Positions 50,969 through 56,110 of a stretch of DNA of 64,000 nucleotides are shown piece after piece. The first letter of the stretch is position 1. Each line of letters opens with the position of its first letter. Source of the DNA: Martelella mediterranea (GTDB lineage Bacteria > Pseudomonadota > Alphaproteobacteria > Rhizobiales > Rhizobiaceae); assembly GCA_003001975.1 (NCBI GenBank), contig PVUG01000004.1, positions 1-64,000 on the forward strand. Direction: 5' to 3'. The notes under the pieces were generated by a model. It was not told the DNA's origin, searched no databases, and worked only from the letters and a program-made list of their open reading frames with translations. The position numbers and the translations under genes were made by a program.

Positions 50969-51099
50969 CTGCAGACTCCATGTGTCTGGCGCGCTTTGTT
51001 GCGGTGGCGCCTCTTGCTTGCCGCTCGTAAATCCGGGCATTGCCCGCCATGAGAAAGCCGTTTCCGGCTGCCTCTTCGGCGGTTCATTCTCTGTGGTTT

Positions 51100-51492
51100 T
51101 TATCCTACGAGTGCGGCGGCGCAGCCCGAGGCGGCGTCGCGACTTGCGTCGTCGTCTCCCGGCATCATTGCCCAGCCGCCAGCTTCAATGAACTGACGCT
51201 GCTTGTAGGAGCTGTTGATGGCCTTCAGTTCGCTCAACTGCTGTGCTGAATCAGGCGCCGCCTTGAACCTCTGGACGCAAATGACCGTCGCCAACTCATC
51301 GCGGGAAAGTTCTCCAGCTTCGACGGCGAGTGTTCTTGATGTGCCGCCAGTCACCCATCCGCCCCAGGTGAAGCCGACGACGATCGTGACGATGGCGGTG
51401 ACGATACAGGCCCACACGAGCGTCGATTTGGCCGGATGATAGGCTTTCCACCGTTCTCCGATGGATGATGCTCCATTGTTTTCTGCTGCCAT
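51100..51492 (-). CDS. Single-helix membrane protein (130 aa)
   Basis: A 130-residue protein with one transmembrane segment (LVWACIVTAIVTIVVGFTWG) and a C-terminal domain with Cys residues (TVICVQRF and SGCAAAL). It fits a conserved, unnamed alphaproteobacterial membrane family (WGGW...ICVQ.F). GGAAGGA precedes the ATG at 51492. It appears single. Confidence 0.75.
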   Translation of the reverse strand: MAAENNGASSIGERWKAYHPAKSTLVWACIVTAIVTIVVGFTWGGWVTGGTSRTLAVEAGELSRDELATVICVQRFKAAPDSAQQLSELKAINSSYKQRQFIEAGGWAMMPGDDDASRDAASGCAAALVG

Positions 51493-51992
51493 GATGCCGA
51501 TTCCTTCCGATTTGGGATGAATTGTCTGGTGTGATCGGCGGCAGCGCTCCCCGGCCGCTTCAGCGTAAATGGACGCGCGTTGTTGGCGTCGCGGGCCTGA
51601 AAAAGACGCTCTCTATTGCGCGCATGCGCCATCATCGTTTCACACCGTGCGCGAAATTCTGAAGAGCTTTTTTAAAGGCAATTTTTATGAGGCCGGGTCT
51701 AGCGAACCGCAAAACTACATATATCTATGATTACGACTGAATAATAGGACATTATAGAAATATCCGCATAATAATTACGTTTTATTGTTTTCAATTTTTC
51801 TTCAATGAAACTAAAATATTGCCTTGAATTAGACACAAAAGAAGCGCATATGCCGTCCATCGATCTTGTTTGACGAACTTTATTTTGCGCCTCGCGCTCT
51901 GGTGATTTTCCCATCAACATCGACTTTATCGTCCGGTCGCGGCCCTCAGCGCCCGCCGGGCATTCTCTCTGATTGATTGAAAGGAAATCGTC
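51493..51992. other. AT-rich leader upstream of the first csp gene
   Basis: No gene is supported. From about 51690 to 51860 the DNA is clearly AT-rich compared with the rest of the window. It probably holds the csp promoter and a long 5' leader, as expected for cold-shock mRNAs. Confidence 0.5.
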
Positions 51993-52202
51993 ATGAGCAC
52001 TGGCACAGTGAAATTTTTCAACACCACCAAGGGTTTTGGCTTCATCGAGGTCGAAGGCGGCGGCTCGGACGTATTCGTCCATATTTCCGCTGTTGAACGC
52101 TCCGGAATGAGCACCATCGCCGAAGGCCAGAAGCTGACCTTTGACGTCGTTGCGGACGACAGGTCCGGCAAAAGCGCTGCGGAAAACCTGCGCGCTGCAT
52201 AA
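51993..52202 (+). CDS. Cold-shock protein, CspA family
   Basis: A 69-residue OB-fold RNA chaperone with RNP1 KGFGFI and RNP2 VFVHIS, acting on mRNA secondary structure at low temperature or general stress. AAAGGAAATC precedes the ATG at 51993. Its 3' region shares a 21-nt element with that of the second csp gene, and it ends before a terminator. Confidence 0.95.
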
Positions 52203-52220
52203 GGATTGTCTTTGCTTCCG

Positions 52221-52241
52221 TGACCACGGATGTACTGGCAC
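52221..52241 (+). repeat. Shared csp 3' element, copy 1
   Basis: Begins 18 nt after the csp stop; identical over 21 nt (core GGATGTACTGGCAC) to 53975-53995 after the second csp gene. It lies in the 3' untranslated region between the stop codon and the terminator. Confidence 0.8.
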
Positions 52242-52263
52242 GGAATATGAAGACGGATGGATC

Positions 52264-52290
52264 GGCCGAGCAATGCGCTCGGCCTTTCTT
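52264..52290 (+). terminator. Terminator after csp 1
   Basis: GGCCGAGC, short loop, GCTCGGCC, then TTTCTT. Confidence 0.8.
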
Positions 52291-52381
52291 GCATTGAGCG
52301 CCCTTACGAAGGTTGGGGTGAGACTTTCGAGACCAATGATCGCGCGTCCCGGTCAAGCGTGGACCGGAGCCAGGAGAATCC

Positions 52382-53407
52382 TTGAGAAGCAATACCGCGA
52401 AGGCCGAAATCGAACGGAACCACCGTTCCTGGATCGCAGCGCTTGCGCCCTACCGGCAGGCCAGCCCTCTCCGCAGCACGATCGAGATCGCCATCACGGC
52501 CTTACCTTTCGTGGCTTTGTGGGTTGTGGTCGCCCTGGCTGTCCTGAACGGCCATTGGTGGGCGCTGTTGCTGACGATTCCCGCGGCCGGTTTCCTTGTT
52601 CGCCTGTTTGTCCTGCAGCATGATTGCGGCCATGGCGCGCTCTTCGCCCGCCGGCGCGCCAACGACTGGACCGGTCGCGTCATCGGCATTTTCACCCTGA
52701 CGCCCTATGATTACTGGCGCCGGACCCACGCGGTTCATCATGCGACGACCGGCAATCTCGACAAGCGCGGCATCGGCGATGTCGATATGCTGACGGTCCG
52801 GGAATATCGTACCCGGTCCTCCTGGGGACGGCTGCGTTATCGTCTTTATCGCCATCCAGTCGTGATGTTCGGTCTCGGTCCCGCCTGGCTGTTTATCTGC
52901 CAGTATCGTTTGCCACTCGGCCTGATGCGGGCAGGTCTGGAGCCATGGACATCGACCATCGTCACCACCGTCGGGGCGGCCATTCCCGTTGCCTTGCTGA
53001 TGTGGCTCATGGGACCGGTTGCGTTTTTGATGGTGCAACTGCCGATCACGCTGATGGCCGCGACAGCCGGAGTATGGCTGTTCTATATCCAGCATCAGTT
53101 TGAGGAAACCCACTGGTCTGACAGCCGCAACTGGGATTTCCAGAATGCGGCGCTCAACGGCAGCTCGCATTACGACCTCCCGTTTCCGCTGCGCTGGATC
53201 ACCGGCAATATCGGTATCCACCACGTCCATCACCTTGCGGCGAAGGTGCCGTTCTATCGCTTGCCGGAAGTGCTCCGCGATTACCCGGAACTGCGCGACA
53301 CGGGACGTATTACGCTCTTGGAGAGCCTGCGCTGCGTCAGGTTTGTGCTGTGGGATGAAAGGACCAACCGATTGGTTTCATTCCGGCAGGCGCGCTTGAG
53401 CGCGTGA
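52382..53407 (+). CDS. Membrane fatty acid desaturase
   Basis: A 341-residue di-iron acyl-lipid desaturase that introduces double bonds into membrane fatty acids, keeping membranes fluid in the cold. The three His boxes are HDCGH (80-84), HAVHHATT (116-123) and HHVHH near 280-284, with paired hydrophobic segments between them (IEIAITALPFVALWVVVALA and others). TTG at 52382 is the start; CCAGGAGAATCC precedes it. It lies between two csp genes, so cold control is likely. Confidence 0.92.
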   Translation: MRSNTAKAEIERNHRSWIAALAPYRQASPLRSTIEIAITALPFVALWVVVALAVLNGHWWALLLTIPAAGFLVRLFVLQHDCGHGALFARRRANDWTGRVIGIFTLTPYDYWRRTHAVHHATTGNLDKRGIGDVDMLTVREYRTRSSWGRLRYRLYRHPVVMFGLGPAWLFICQYRLPLGLMRAGLEPWTSTIVTTVGAAIPVALLMWLMGPVAFLMVQLPITLMAATAGVWLFYIQHQFEETHWSDSRNWDFQNAALNGSSHYDLPFPLRWITGNIGIHHVHHLAAKVPFYRLPEVLRDYPELRDTGRITLLESLRCVRFVLWDERTNRLVSFRQARLSA

Positions 53408-53740
53408 TGCCAAGGATCTGTTCAAGCGGTATGCGCAGGGTTCAGAACGTCGCCATCGCTGAAACAGTGCCACCCTTTTCCAGGCCTAGCCCTGCTTTCT
53501 CCGCCGCAAAGAGGGGCAACCGGTGTAACAACCAGATGCCGAAGAAATCGAAGACGAAAACTATAAGTTGACAACTGGATGAAAAGGCCCCTTATATCGA
53601 TTGTCGATATTTGCTTGTTAAGCTTTAGTTATTGTGCGTTTGACACCGCTCCTTGAACGAACTTTTTCATCCAAAAATCGCTATCACCATCCGCGGCGCT
53701 TTCGGCGTTGTGGTTTCTTATTGCTATGAAAGGGTTCATC
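53408..53740 (+). other. Leader of the second csp gene
   Basis: No gene. The stretch contains the promoter given separately and about 130 nt of untranslated leader before the ribosome site AAAGGGTTC. Long leaders of this sort control cold-shock mRNAs. Confidence 0.5.
53568..53609 (+). promoter_or_regulatory. Putative promoter of csp 2
   Basis: TTGACA (53568-53573) and TTATAT (53592-53597) with 18-bp spacing, followed by the inverted repeat TATCGA-TTG-TCGATA (53595-53609), which overlaps the -10 and could be an operator or early leader hairpin. Confidence 0.55.
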
Positions 53741-53950
53741 ATGACCACTGGCACAGTTAAATGGTTCAATTCGACGAAGGGCTTCGGCTTCATTCAACCT
53801 GAAAATGGCGGCGCCGATGCATTTGTTCACATCTCCGCCGTAGAGCGCTCCGGAATGCGCGAGCTCCTGGAAGGCCAGAAGATCGGCTACGAGCTCGAGC
53901 GCGACAGCAAGTCGGGCAAGATGTCGGCCTGCAATCTACGGGCTGCCTGA
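53741..53950 (+). CDS. Cold-shock protein, CspA family (second copy)
   Basis: A 69-residue cold-shock protein with KGFGFI and AFVHIS, similar to the first copy but clearly diverged (for example [10 protein letters not shown] against [10 protein letters not shown]). The ATG at 53741 follows AAAGGGTTCATC. It is the second member of the csp-desaturase-csp set and is followed by the same 3' element. Confidence 0.95.
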
Positions 53951-53974
53951 ATTATCCCGGTATCTGCTCACCAT

Positions 53975-53995
53975 TGACCACGGATGTACTGGCAC
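53975..53995 (+). repeat. Shared csp 3' element, copy 2
   Basis: Begins 24 nt after the second csp stop; identical over 21 nt to 52221-52241. Confidence 0.8.
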
Positions 53996-54018
53996 TGTCG
54001 AGAGCACGACACCGGCAA

Positions 54019-54045
54019 GGTCAGGCTGATCGCCTGGCCTTTTTT
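54019..54045 (+). terminator. Terminator after csp 2
   Basis: GGTCAGGC, loop TGATC, GCCTGGCC, then six T. It lies upstream of the 74-residue gene at 54086. Confidence 0.85.
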
Positions 54046-54085
54046 GTTGCCGCGGTACTTTGCGGCGTCCTATTTGGAAAAGATC

Positions 54086-54310
54086 ATGTCACAGACACAC
54101 AGCAAATCGCGTCAGAAGGCGGAGATCGCCTTCGCCAATGCGCAATCGCAATTTTTCGCACGCAATGCTGCCGTCGAGGAGCTCGATTTCCTCGCTCTGG
54201 CCCGTGAGGAAAAGACCCGGCGGCTTCGTGAAGCCCGCCTTGCAAAAGAACTGAAAGACCGGAAGACGGCGACCGCCGCTCTCGTCGCCAAGCGGGCCAA
54301 GCTGGCATGA
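54086..54310 (+). CDS. Small helical protein (74 aa)
   Basis: A 74-residue, Ala- and charge-rich, helical protein (MSQTHSKSRQKAEIAFANAQ, then LALAREEKTRRLREARLAKE). No known family. It starts 40 nt after the csp terminator, and GGAAAAGATC precedes the ATG. It may be read through from csp or have its own promoter. Confidence 0.65.
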   Translation: MSQTHSKSRQKAEIAFANAQSQFFARNAAVEELDFLALAREEKTRRLREARLAKELKDRKTATAALVAKRAKLA

Positions 54311-54483
54311 TGTGTTCAACATGACGTGCAGATAGCGTTTTGAAGAACACCGGAAACAGCGGCTTCTCCGAACGAGTTACCGCAACCCCTGAAGCGGCAA
54401 CCTCTAAAGATGTGGGTGATTTCAAGAGGTTATGATTCCTTCGGCGCCCGTCGGCAATATGCCAGGAGAACTGGACGCACGCA

Positions 54484-54885
54484 AGCGAGTTGACTGATCG
54501 GGAATGGACACTGGTTGAGCCTTTTCTGCCCAGGCATCGTCACCTCGTCCGCGTAACACAGATTTGCGCGAGGCTGTCAACGCCCTGCTCTACACCGCCA
54601 CGACCGGCTGCCCGCGGCGAATACTGCTGAAGGATTCTCCGCCCTGCCCGACCGTCCAGCGCTATTTTTATGAAGCGCGGGCGTTAGGACTTTGGACACG
54701 CATCAACCATCGTCTTGCAATGGAAACCCGCGAGTTGGAGGGCAGAGAGGCAAATCGGGCGGCTGGTGTGATCGATAGCCAGAGCGCCAAAACCACGGAA
54801 AGCGGCGGAATCCGAGGCTATGACACAGTCAGGAAGATCAAGGGCCGGAAGCGCCGGCATATGCCGTGCACGCTAAAGTCCGCCT
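54484..54885 (+). pseudogene. IS5-family transposase remnant
   Basis: A plus-strand reading starts SELTDREWTLVEPFLPRHRH, shifts frame near 54550, and continues REAVNALLYTATTGCPRRIL, VQRYFYEARALGLWTRINHR, GVIDSQSAKTTESGGIRGYD, KIKGRKR, the conserved N-terminal half of an IS5-type transposase including the first DDE Asp (GVIDSQS). The sequence then stops being similar at about 54870, where IS91 DNA begins. One frameshift and loss of the C-terminal half make it inactive. Confidence 0.85.
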
Positions 54886-56110
54886 TTCCACTTGGGCAAT
54901 GGAAAACCTGCCAATCAGCCTTCGTGAAGAGTTTCGGGTTCCGTCAGGCGTATTCGGCGGCCCGCGTGGCTGTCGCCAGCGCTCGAACACCTCGATAGCG
55001 ATCATGCGCCACCACAGCAGGGACATGGCTGCCGGATGTCGATCGGCTCGTCGGTTGCGTCGTTCTCCGGCGGCTGGACGACGCTCAGGAGTTCGCGGGC
55101 GCGTGCGATACAGATATTGCGGGAGCCGCCGGCGAGCAAACCGTAATGGGGAATGCGATGGAAGCCCTTCGGCAGAATATGAATCAGGAAGCGGCGGATG
55201 AACTCGGCCGTGGCTAGCGTCATGATCCGCTGCCGGTCTGTGCCGTCGCGGCGATAGTCCTTGTAGCGGAAGGTTACGCCGTCCTTGTCCAACGAGATCA
55301 GACGACTGTTCGAGATCGCCACCCGGTGTGTGTAAAGCGACAGATAGGCAAGGACTGCCTCAGGCCCCGCAAAGGCTGACTTGGCGAATACAACCCAGCG
55401 TTTCCCGCGAACTGGCGACAGGTGCCGCAAAAATACCTGGCGGTCAGCCAGATGTGCTACTGAGCCGAAGAAGGTAAGTTTGCCGGCATCCTGGAGCTGG
55501 ATCAGCCGCGTGAGAAACAAGCGGCGGAACAGCTTGCCGAGCACGCGCACCGGCAGGAGAAATGCGGGACGCGAGGATATCCAGCGTGTGCCATCGAGGG
55601 AAATTCCGCCGCCGGGCACGATCATGTGAACATGGGGAAGATGGGTCATGGCGAACCCCATGTGTGGAGCACGGCGGTGATGCCGATGCGCGCGCGGAGA
55701 TGCTTCGGATCGGCGGCGATCGTCAGCATGGTTTGCGATGTGGTCTTGAACAGAAGGTCATAGATGAGCGCCTTGTTGTGAAAGGCGATCTTGGCGACCT
55801 CGGGGGGGGGCAGCGTGAAGACGACATGGAACTATCCCACCGGCAGCAGGTCAGCCCCGCGCGCGGCAAGCCATGTGCGTGCGGCAACGCCCTGGCACTT
55901 CGGGCAGTGCCGGTTACGGCAGGAGTTATAGGCGATGCGCCATTGTTCACAAGCCTCGACATGCCCACCCAGTGCGGCCGTTCGGCAATGCTCGATCGCG
56001 GACATCACCTTGAGGTGGGCCAGGCTGAGATGCCCTTGATGGGCTGACCGACAGGCGGGGCCGGCAGAGCGGAAGATGTCGGCGACCTCGATTGAGGCGC
56101 GCCTCGGTTC
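54838..56110 (-). pseudogene. IS91-family transposase, broken
   Basis: Minus-strand similarity to IS91 (HUH, Y2-type rolling-circle) transposases covers EVADIFRSAGPA, CRNRHCPKCQGVAARTWLAA, FHVVFTLPP, MTHLPHVHMIVPGGGISLDG and RYKDYRRDG. It is broken by an in-frame TAG just before FHVVFTLPP (near 55833), a run of Cs (near 55804) and a one-base deletion near 55005 that separates CPCCGG from the C-terminal IEVFERWRQPRGPP. No functional enzyme can be made. Confidence 0.88.

Follow-up and report, generated by a model that had tools for sequence, protein, structure and literature searches.

The window analysed here is a stretch of 64,000 nt of Martelella mediterranea DNA (assembly GCA_003001975.1, contig PVUG01000004.1, positions 1 to 64,000 of the forward strand), and this work concerns a putative RNA hairpin that lies directly 3' of two cold-shock protein (csp) genes, on the same strand as these. 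The genes csp 1 (51993..52202, found as an open reading frame, ORF) and csp 2 (53741..53950, ATG at 53741) are located on the plus strand and encode proteins of 69 amino acids (aa), which are 65% identical over 69 aa and whose cold-shock domain (CSD) was confirmed with PF00313 at 75.1 and 79.2 bits, respectively. The 21-mer TGACCACGGATGTACTGGCAC is separated by 18 nt from the stop of csp 1 (52202) and by 24 nt from that of csp 2 (53950), and a direct-repeat search of positions 51000-55000 found it to be 100% identical at 52221-52241 and 53975-53995. It forms part of a 38-nt consensus unit on the plus strand (52212..52249 and 53966..54003) with a bulged A (52223 and 53977) and a loop (CGGATGTAC at 52227-52235, and 53981-53989). 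Model R1 scored the units at 48.5 bits (E 2.0e-10) and 46.2 bits (E 1.0e-9), scores that are not independent, both hairpins being among the 44 sequences from which the model was built. A Rho-independent terminator with a T-rich tail follows on the plus strand in each case (52264..52292, stem 52264-52284, 8 pairs; 54017..54046, stem 54017-54041, 10 pairs), its stem starting 22 and 21 nt after the 21-mer. From their position and the terminators, we infer that the hairpins are transcribed as the 3' ends of the csp mRNAs.

A first-pass annotation of this DNA had reported an identical 21-nt element between stop and terminator of both csp genes, and it was located exactly there. Six direct-repeat families were listed for 51000-55000; the element is the longest of them, and no other repeat of at least 14 nt joining both csp 3' regions was listed for that interval. 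Its 14-nt core, searched with up to 2 mismatches, occurs at two places only in the 64 kb, both with 0 mismatches; the shuffled window yielded a mean of 0.24 matches, and two matches were reached in 1 of 100 shuffles. A chance origin of the repeat is excluded by the repeat search, by these window shuffles and by shuffles concerning an 18-nt core, given below.

Structure and covariation of the hairpin

The linear 21-mer had been regarded as the conserved unit by the first-pass annotation. The existence of a conserved site was supported by our analysis, but the linear unit was not, as the element is actually a hairpin, in which a 9-nt loop and a bulged A are combined with a stem that covaries. 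Besides the variable stem and this bulge, it comprises the loop CGGAUGUAC and three pairs that are conserved (CCA/UGG). In alignment A1, comprising 44 non-redundant csp-linked sites, 81.4% of the cells were paired compared to 64.5% after shuffling, and double-change cells amounted to 109 compared to 49.2, neither value being reached in 500 shuffles. Controls with slid partners gave at most 49.2% paired cells, and two weaker covariation measures were reached by 39 and 5 of 500 shuffles. The flanks also pair outward from the core. Over 12 positions, 378 cells were paired in 49 non-redundant csp-linked sites (270.7 when shuffled, maximum 298), and 301 in 44 sites without csp link (236.3 when shuffled, maximum 263).

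Similar results were obtained outside the model, in a set of 33 distinct sequences taken from 35 of 37 loci, with 34 of the 35 lying outside the order of the window. In this set 347 of 396 cells were paired, compared to 270.9 in shuffles (maximum 285), and the inner stem exhibited swaps from G-C to C-G (4), C-G to U-A (1) and A-U to G-C (2), with one broken pair. The two omitted loci, L221 and L249, do not contain CGGATGTA; L249 is a hairpin with a changed loop (CGGATGAAC), while L221 is probably no true copy. In the window itself, the csp 1 hairpin adopts the outer stem of the consensus (-14.0 kcal/mol, z -3.2).

A terminator was found to follow 88 of 96 csp-linked and 59 of 67 other sites, as well as 101 of 120 IMG/VR sites (all among the matches listed, and with duplicates included for IMG/VR), compared to 4-7% in shuffles that preserve base composition only. 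Because the stem covaries, the hairpin is, on these comparative grounds, an element that acts as RNA. A small ORF beginning at the AUG of the loop was also considered and was rejected, given that ORF lengths are scattered and the stem covaries.

Distribution across genomes, mobile DNA and genes

Among 151 genomes of the window's family, 63 contain the exact 14-mer, and a reversed control pattern was detected in 8 of the same 151; across the order, the 14-mer is present in 17 of 249 genomes. At least 119 stretches of the genome contig collection matched the pattern GACCNCGGATGTACNGGC, and pooling these with other loci resulted in at least 164 unique sites, after exclusion of sites less than 40 nt from the 5' or less than 80 nt from the 3' locus edge and of identical 120-nt sites. 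Among the matches listed, 97 of 164 sites follow a csp stop at a distance of no more than 130 nt, and for 79 of the 97 this distance is 15-31 nt. A hairpin-blind sample, in which csp loci were selected by protein similarity to csp 2, was in agreement with this picture. The full 18-nt core was present in 24 of 27 distinct 3' regions, one further region (L418) had a single loop change, and the two core-free regions belong to the loci whose Csp proteins are the least similar (58% and 51%); among 540 shuffled regions, no match to the core exceeded 13/18. This sample derives from 39 IMG/VR csp loci, mostly close relatives of csp 2, of which 9 identical 3' regions and 3 shorter than 60 nt were dropped.

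Searches with model R1 extended this distribution. In 21 relatives the model was found in 14, with 43 matches, 37 of them csp-linked. Across the class 10 of 240 genomes were positive, and so were 45 of 76 genomes in another alphaproteobacterial order (around G471), 1 of 15 around G482 and 31 of 398 in the phylum, two of the last being weak and outside the class. Of 37 loci examined from the class-wide and G471-order searches, 31 are csp-linked, the 28 newly taken from the G471-order search being the best-scoring ones. Judged by these matches, the hairpin is spread beyond Rhizobiales, in another alphaproteobacterial order. In one genome (G384, contig C6) seven model matches, five with the same score, are scattered over one contig, and the hairpin there may be part of a dispersed repeat.

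These results bear on a recent DNA duplication behind both csp genes, which the first-pass annotation expected if the core were absent from other csp 3' regions. The identity of the 21-mers would be in line with such an event. However, no further repeat of at least 14 nt is common to the two 3' regions, the proteins are 65% identical, and the stems differ among the csp genes of many genera. Since the element is present behind csp genes across and beyond Rhizobiales, a recent duplication can be regarded as refuted; the core is widespread downstream of csp genes, and the proposal of a conserved 3' site has held.

Within the genus, 3 of 5 single-domain csp genes of the window genome (G000) carry the hairpin, csp 1 and csp 2 once and the third one twice, and in 13 congeners 27 of 53 single-domain csp genes do so, with orthology taken from position and score only. 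This count was made on 59 CSD rows, with two-domain proteins and most rows outside the genus left out. Hairpin-bearing csp pairs approximately 1.7-1.8 kb apart also occur in G395, G396, G399, G402, and G405.

A csp gene with tandem hairpins was found in nine congeners and is followed by rpsU in all five inspected (G000, G396, G403, G404, and G405); a like csp/tandem-hairpin/rpsU locus exists in Martelella radicis (L134). Six of the 43 model R1 matches have no csp link, and four of these form two tandem pairs, one in G081 and one in G397, which are again followed by rpsU. The identity of rpsU was confirmed with PF01165 in the three loci tested. No CSD match was obtained on the csp-less contigs of G081 and G397. 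Alignment by eye revealed that the csp frame is lost, with a 3' remnant in G397 and none in G081, and that both genomes retain GCCTATATC, possibly part of a promoter, together with both 18-nt cores and the terminator, while the intervening sequence has drifted. Other csp genes are still present in both genomes. The simplest reading of this comparison is that the hairpins would be selected apart from csp at this locus. Single hairpins without csp nearby also occur in the genus, in G401 (C22, 84283-84320, L206) and G398 (C1, 313720-313757). Together with its terminator, the L206 hairpin resembles an ar35-type RNA that stands alone.

Genes other than csp were found to end 46-118 nt upstream of the hairpin, including those for CsbD (L320 group), lipocalin (L342 group), a DUF892 protein (L084), a nuclease-fold protein (L024), homocysteine S-methyltransferase (L018), and glutathione S-transferase-like proteins (L093, L135). 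A recurring csp-free hairpin with arms resembling GGAATGA... and ...GTTCCGG was also observed in different genera (L091, L125, L127, and L145).

The pattern scan of IMG/VR returned at least 120 stretches and at least 101 unique sites; among the matches listed, 98 have A-U or G-C as the third pair and 37 lie behind a csp stop. Some of these contigs may contain host flanks. Nevertheless, several hairpin-bearing contigs clearly belong to phages, judging from their gene content. In L288 the hairpin is separated by 93 nt from a preceding gene for a major head protein and is overlapped by an ORF of 125 aa without assignment; in L397 a head-tail connector gene ends 22 nt upstream of the hairpin and a head assembly gene follows 351 nt downstream. 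The hairpin is also found on contigs that carry genes for terminase (L326, L329), tape measure (L339, L384) or an antiterminator (L297). Four contigs with both csp and hairpin (L318, L330, L332, and L336) carry phage exonuclease, NinI-like phosphatase or terminase genes; for the neighbours tested on L335, L298 and L290, phage families were matched weakly or not at all. A csp-free ar35-like unit recurs in L287, L320, L333, L337 and similar contigs, where it follows CsbD or small acidic ORFs, and L287 and L320 have a primase/polymerase family gene nearby.

Among the INPHARED isolates, no rhizobial-phage hairpin was found with the csp 2 region (310 nt) or with the ar35-like phage unit L337:1180-1380 (201 nt) as query. 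The L397 connector region matched 55 nt of the connector gene of Rhizobium phage RHph_I20 and not the hairpin, and the 38-nt hairpin matched 63 records, with no alphaproteobacterial-host name among the 40 of 63 listed. As no INPHARED isolate phage showed the hairpin, the phage claim concerns IMG/VR contigs only. The 100-nt 3' region of csp 2 matched 400 plasmid records, mostly of Rhizobium, Sinorhizobium and Agrobacterium.

Candidate partners of the hairpin

The hairpin is found mainly, not exclusively, behind csp and persists after csp loss at one locus. Its conservation leads us to infer a regulatory role, and we consider it probable, on balance, that it serves as a putative docking site for a trans-acting factor, presumably a protein. 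The bulged A and the loop would form the contact surface of one such factor, most likely an RNA-binding protein, which would set csp mRNA stability or translation from the 3' end. The csp-free copies (ar35/SmrB35 RNAs, csp-less loci, phage and plasmid) would compete for this factor or act through it. A stem free in sequence but not in pairing, combined with a near-fixed bulge and loop, is typical of hairpins that bind proteins.

Several observations weigh against this interpretation. An invariant loop would fit an RNA partner as well. Its invariance, like that of the bulge, is given by construction in the pool of at least 164 sites, where the pattern fixes both, and the bulged A is present in 33 of 33 sequences of the set outside the model by construction as well, these rows having been located by CGGATGTA. 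In the freer samples the loop is occasionally changed (L418, L249), so that its conservation is high, not absolute. By minimum free energy, the consensus stem is not formed by the isolated 41-nt piece of csp 2 (z 0.33; 121 of 200 shuffles as good). Moreover, 67 of the 164 sites, among the matches listed, are not csp-linked, so that a role specific to csp would be an incomplete account. Two single-domain csp genes without hairpin exist in each of the 13 congeners, indicating that the hairpin is not required for csp expression as such. Finally, the csp-less loci are known from two genomes only (G081, G397).

Other candidate readers of the hairpin have been weighed. The loop reads CANGGANG, and C-ACGGAU-G fits the loop consensus of Csr/Rsm sites. 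However, among the family genomes PF02599 was found in only 1 of 151, G000 being without it, compared to the exact 14-mer in 63 of 151 (the same sample as far as listed), so that CsrA itself is excluded in the family and a site of this type is practically ruled out for it; an unrelated protein of CsrA-like preference is possible. The sole CsrA gene among the 151 genomes (G011, C70, 953-1108, L193) could be on a mobile element. Control of the 3' untranslated region (UTR) by Hfq, with stand-alone relatives sequestering decay complexes, has been proposed by analogy with E. coli cspA (PMC3927594). Nevertheless, SmrB35 was undetected in FLAG-Hfq co-immunoprecipitation, in contrast to 4 of 7 tested Smr RNAs, even though its authors conceded that a very low Hfq affinity is possible (PMC2848018), and we regard this mechanism as improbable. 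An equally improbable suggestion is that hairpin and terminator merely block 3' exonucleases as a passive stabiliser. The hairpin is mostly near a terminator and is also found behind phage head and connector genes, which are strongly expressed, but a conserved loop and bulge would be needless for such a purpose, and it is the stem that has diverged, with compensatory changes, whereas the loop and the bulged A show hardly any change.

Somewhat less doubtful, although still unlikely, is autoregulation, in which Csp would bind the hairpin of its own mRNA and csp-less RNAs would titrate Csp. This agrees with the predominance of csp among the hosts of the hairpin, both in the site pool and in the 21 relatives. 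On the other hand, two single-domain csp genes of G000 have no hairpin, the hairpin is retained where csp is lost in genomes holding other csp genes, and Csp proteins generally favour single-stranded pyrimidine-rich RNA, unlike the hairpin loop. The loop CGGAUGUAC could also be the seed by which small RNAs (processed csp 3' ends, ar35) recognise target mRNAs or the csp leader, a base-pairing module that we would give a small chance, if a better one than autoregulation. In its favour, ar35/SmrB35 is a stand-alone transcript (PMC2780559), and CATCCG, which is complementary to the loop (full complement GUACAUCCG), occurs in 22 of 89 csp leaders compared to 7.0 after shuffling (maximum 13), and CATCCGT in 8 of 89 compared to 1.1. 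However, 19 of 23 CATCCG occurrences lie at -42 to -58 of the leader, many of them (by eye) in one leader type, and are therefore not independent. In addition, CATCCG is missing from 67 of 89 leaders, and ACATCC, which spans more of the loop, occurs in 2 of 89. Pairing of the loop with the csp leader as a general rule was rejected, the signal being neither independent nor general. We thus favour a trans-acting factor that docks on the hairpin, since the bulge and loop are nearly fixed while the stem compensates, CsrA is absent, Hfq is unsupported, and leader pairing is not general.

The first-pass annotation had also linked the 21-mer to the start region of csp 2. The sequence ATGACCACTGGCAC does resemble the 21-mer, yet the resemblance is a coding one. 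It opens 22 of 89 hairpin-bearing csp genes, and CTGGCAC, near the start in 28 of 89, is also found there in a hairpin-free csp of the same genome (C13); start-codon mimicry was therefore rejected. Regarding the leaders, a stretch near -75 to -82 (TTCCTTTCAA-like) is frequent and complementary to the Shine-Dalgarno region, and leader complementarity to this region exceeded the 95th percentile of shuffles in 15 of 78 non-redundant csp leaders (approximately 4 expected). Such pairing could possibly constitute a cold-responsive leader helix. In csp 2, a possible helix of 12 pairs over the Shine-Dalgarno region was identified at 53659..53737 on the plus strand (53659-53670 with 53726-53737). Between the csp genes, a plus-strand fatty acid desaturase gene is located at 52382..53407 (PF00487, 118.5 bits; start codon uncertain), and the arrangement csp 1, desaturase, csp 2 (51993-53950) resembles a small cold-adaptation cluster.

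A broader proposal is offered only tentatively and is more likely to fail than to hold. A family nearly devoid of CsrA would have an undiscovered RNA-binding protein, perhaps class-wide, that reads the bulged-A/CGGAUGUAC hairpin, and csp mRNAs, ar35-type RNAs, other partly stress-linked 3' ends and phage copies would form one titration network, in which a csp gene can decay into a decoy RNA. Such decay may have taken place in two congeners. The present comparison narrows the unit to approximately 38 nt and distinguishes the nucleotides of the stem, which change with compensation, from the bulged A and the loop, which hardly vary. It also eliminates CsrA as reader, makes Hfq a weaker candidate, and provides phage copies and loci where csp was lost naturally. 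Pull-down and mutational tests thereby become straightforward in laboratory rhizobia and could reveal a widespread RNA-binding regulator.

Comparison with known RNAs

The hairpin has relatives among described RNAs. SmrB35/ar35 has been known since 2007, and according to its Rfam consensus this stand-alone RNA contains the same hairpin. Rfam family RF02346 (ar35) matched copy 2 with 45.8 bits over 53911-54048, just above the gathering cut-off of 45, and copy 1 with 38.1 bits over 52162-52293, below it. In both alignments the conserved block GACCACGGAUGUACUGGCAC corresponds to the loop-bearing second stem, and by comparison stems 2 and 3 (GGAUGUA hairpin and terminator) are present at both copies. 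What the window copies share with ar35 is thus the GACCaCGGAUGUACuGGCaC hairpin with its terminator. In contrast, ar35 has been described as an independent RNA of three stem-loops, the first of them variable, whereas the first stem here lies mostly over the csp coding sequence (from 53911 and from 52162), with few non-standard pairs, and could form. A consensus scan for a sigma-70-like promoter on the plus strand, within csp or the gap between csp and hairpin, gave none at either copy.

E. coli cspA, with its thermoregulator RF01766, offers a similar case of a csp transcript with structured ends. RF01766 gave a partial match of 34.4 bits over csp 1 (cut-off 78) in a stretch that began at 51900, so that the match was clipped 5', and it was not reported in the Rfam search of the whole window. 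To our knowledge, no GGAUGUA hairpin exists in E. coli cspA mRNA. CsrB/RsmZ could act in a similar way. Their purine-rich loop is conserved too, and such hairpins occur on mRNAs as well as on separate RNAs, which possibly titrate a protein. However, CsrB/RsmZ are multi-hairpin sponges with GGA loops, while the copies described here are mostly single or double and CsrA is nearly absent from the family.

The closest likeness is to the RFM SmelB053 3'-UTRs on cold-shock genes, in which a second stem loop GGAUGUA is followed by a terminator (PMC3927594). Relatives of SmelB053 (identical to smrB35) have the common loop GGAUGUA, sometimes miss the first stem loop, and include related Rhizobiales 3'-UTRs of which 29 of 33 are on cold-shock genes (PMC3927594). 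SmrB35 itself is a 139-nt transcript of Sinorhizobium meliloti, induced approximately 4-fold by luteolin (PMC2780559) and most abundant in log phase (PMC2848018), and no function is assigned to SmrB35/ar35 in the available parts of the three papers. By loop, terminator and position, both window copies are members of the SmelB053-related csp 3'-UTR hairpins. The loop and the link to cold-shock 3'-UTRs (PMC3927594), as well as Rfam RF02346, are thus already known. No prior description of phage copies, csp-less loci or spread outside Rhizobiales was found in open-licence titles and abstract starts centred on ar35/SmrB35 and csp, a search that was not aimed at csp-less loci and covered phage slightly. 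Our finding is one more example of a rhizobial element that has been described but still lacks an explanation. Compared to the SmelB053 paper, which in its available parts is confined to Rhizobiales (PMC3927594), the present analysis adds breadth, in the form of another order of the class, phage-like contigs and plasmids, anatomy, in that the bulged A and the compensations of the inner stem are specified within a covarying stem, and evolution, through loci where csp was lost and the hairpin was kept.

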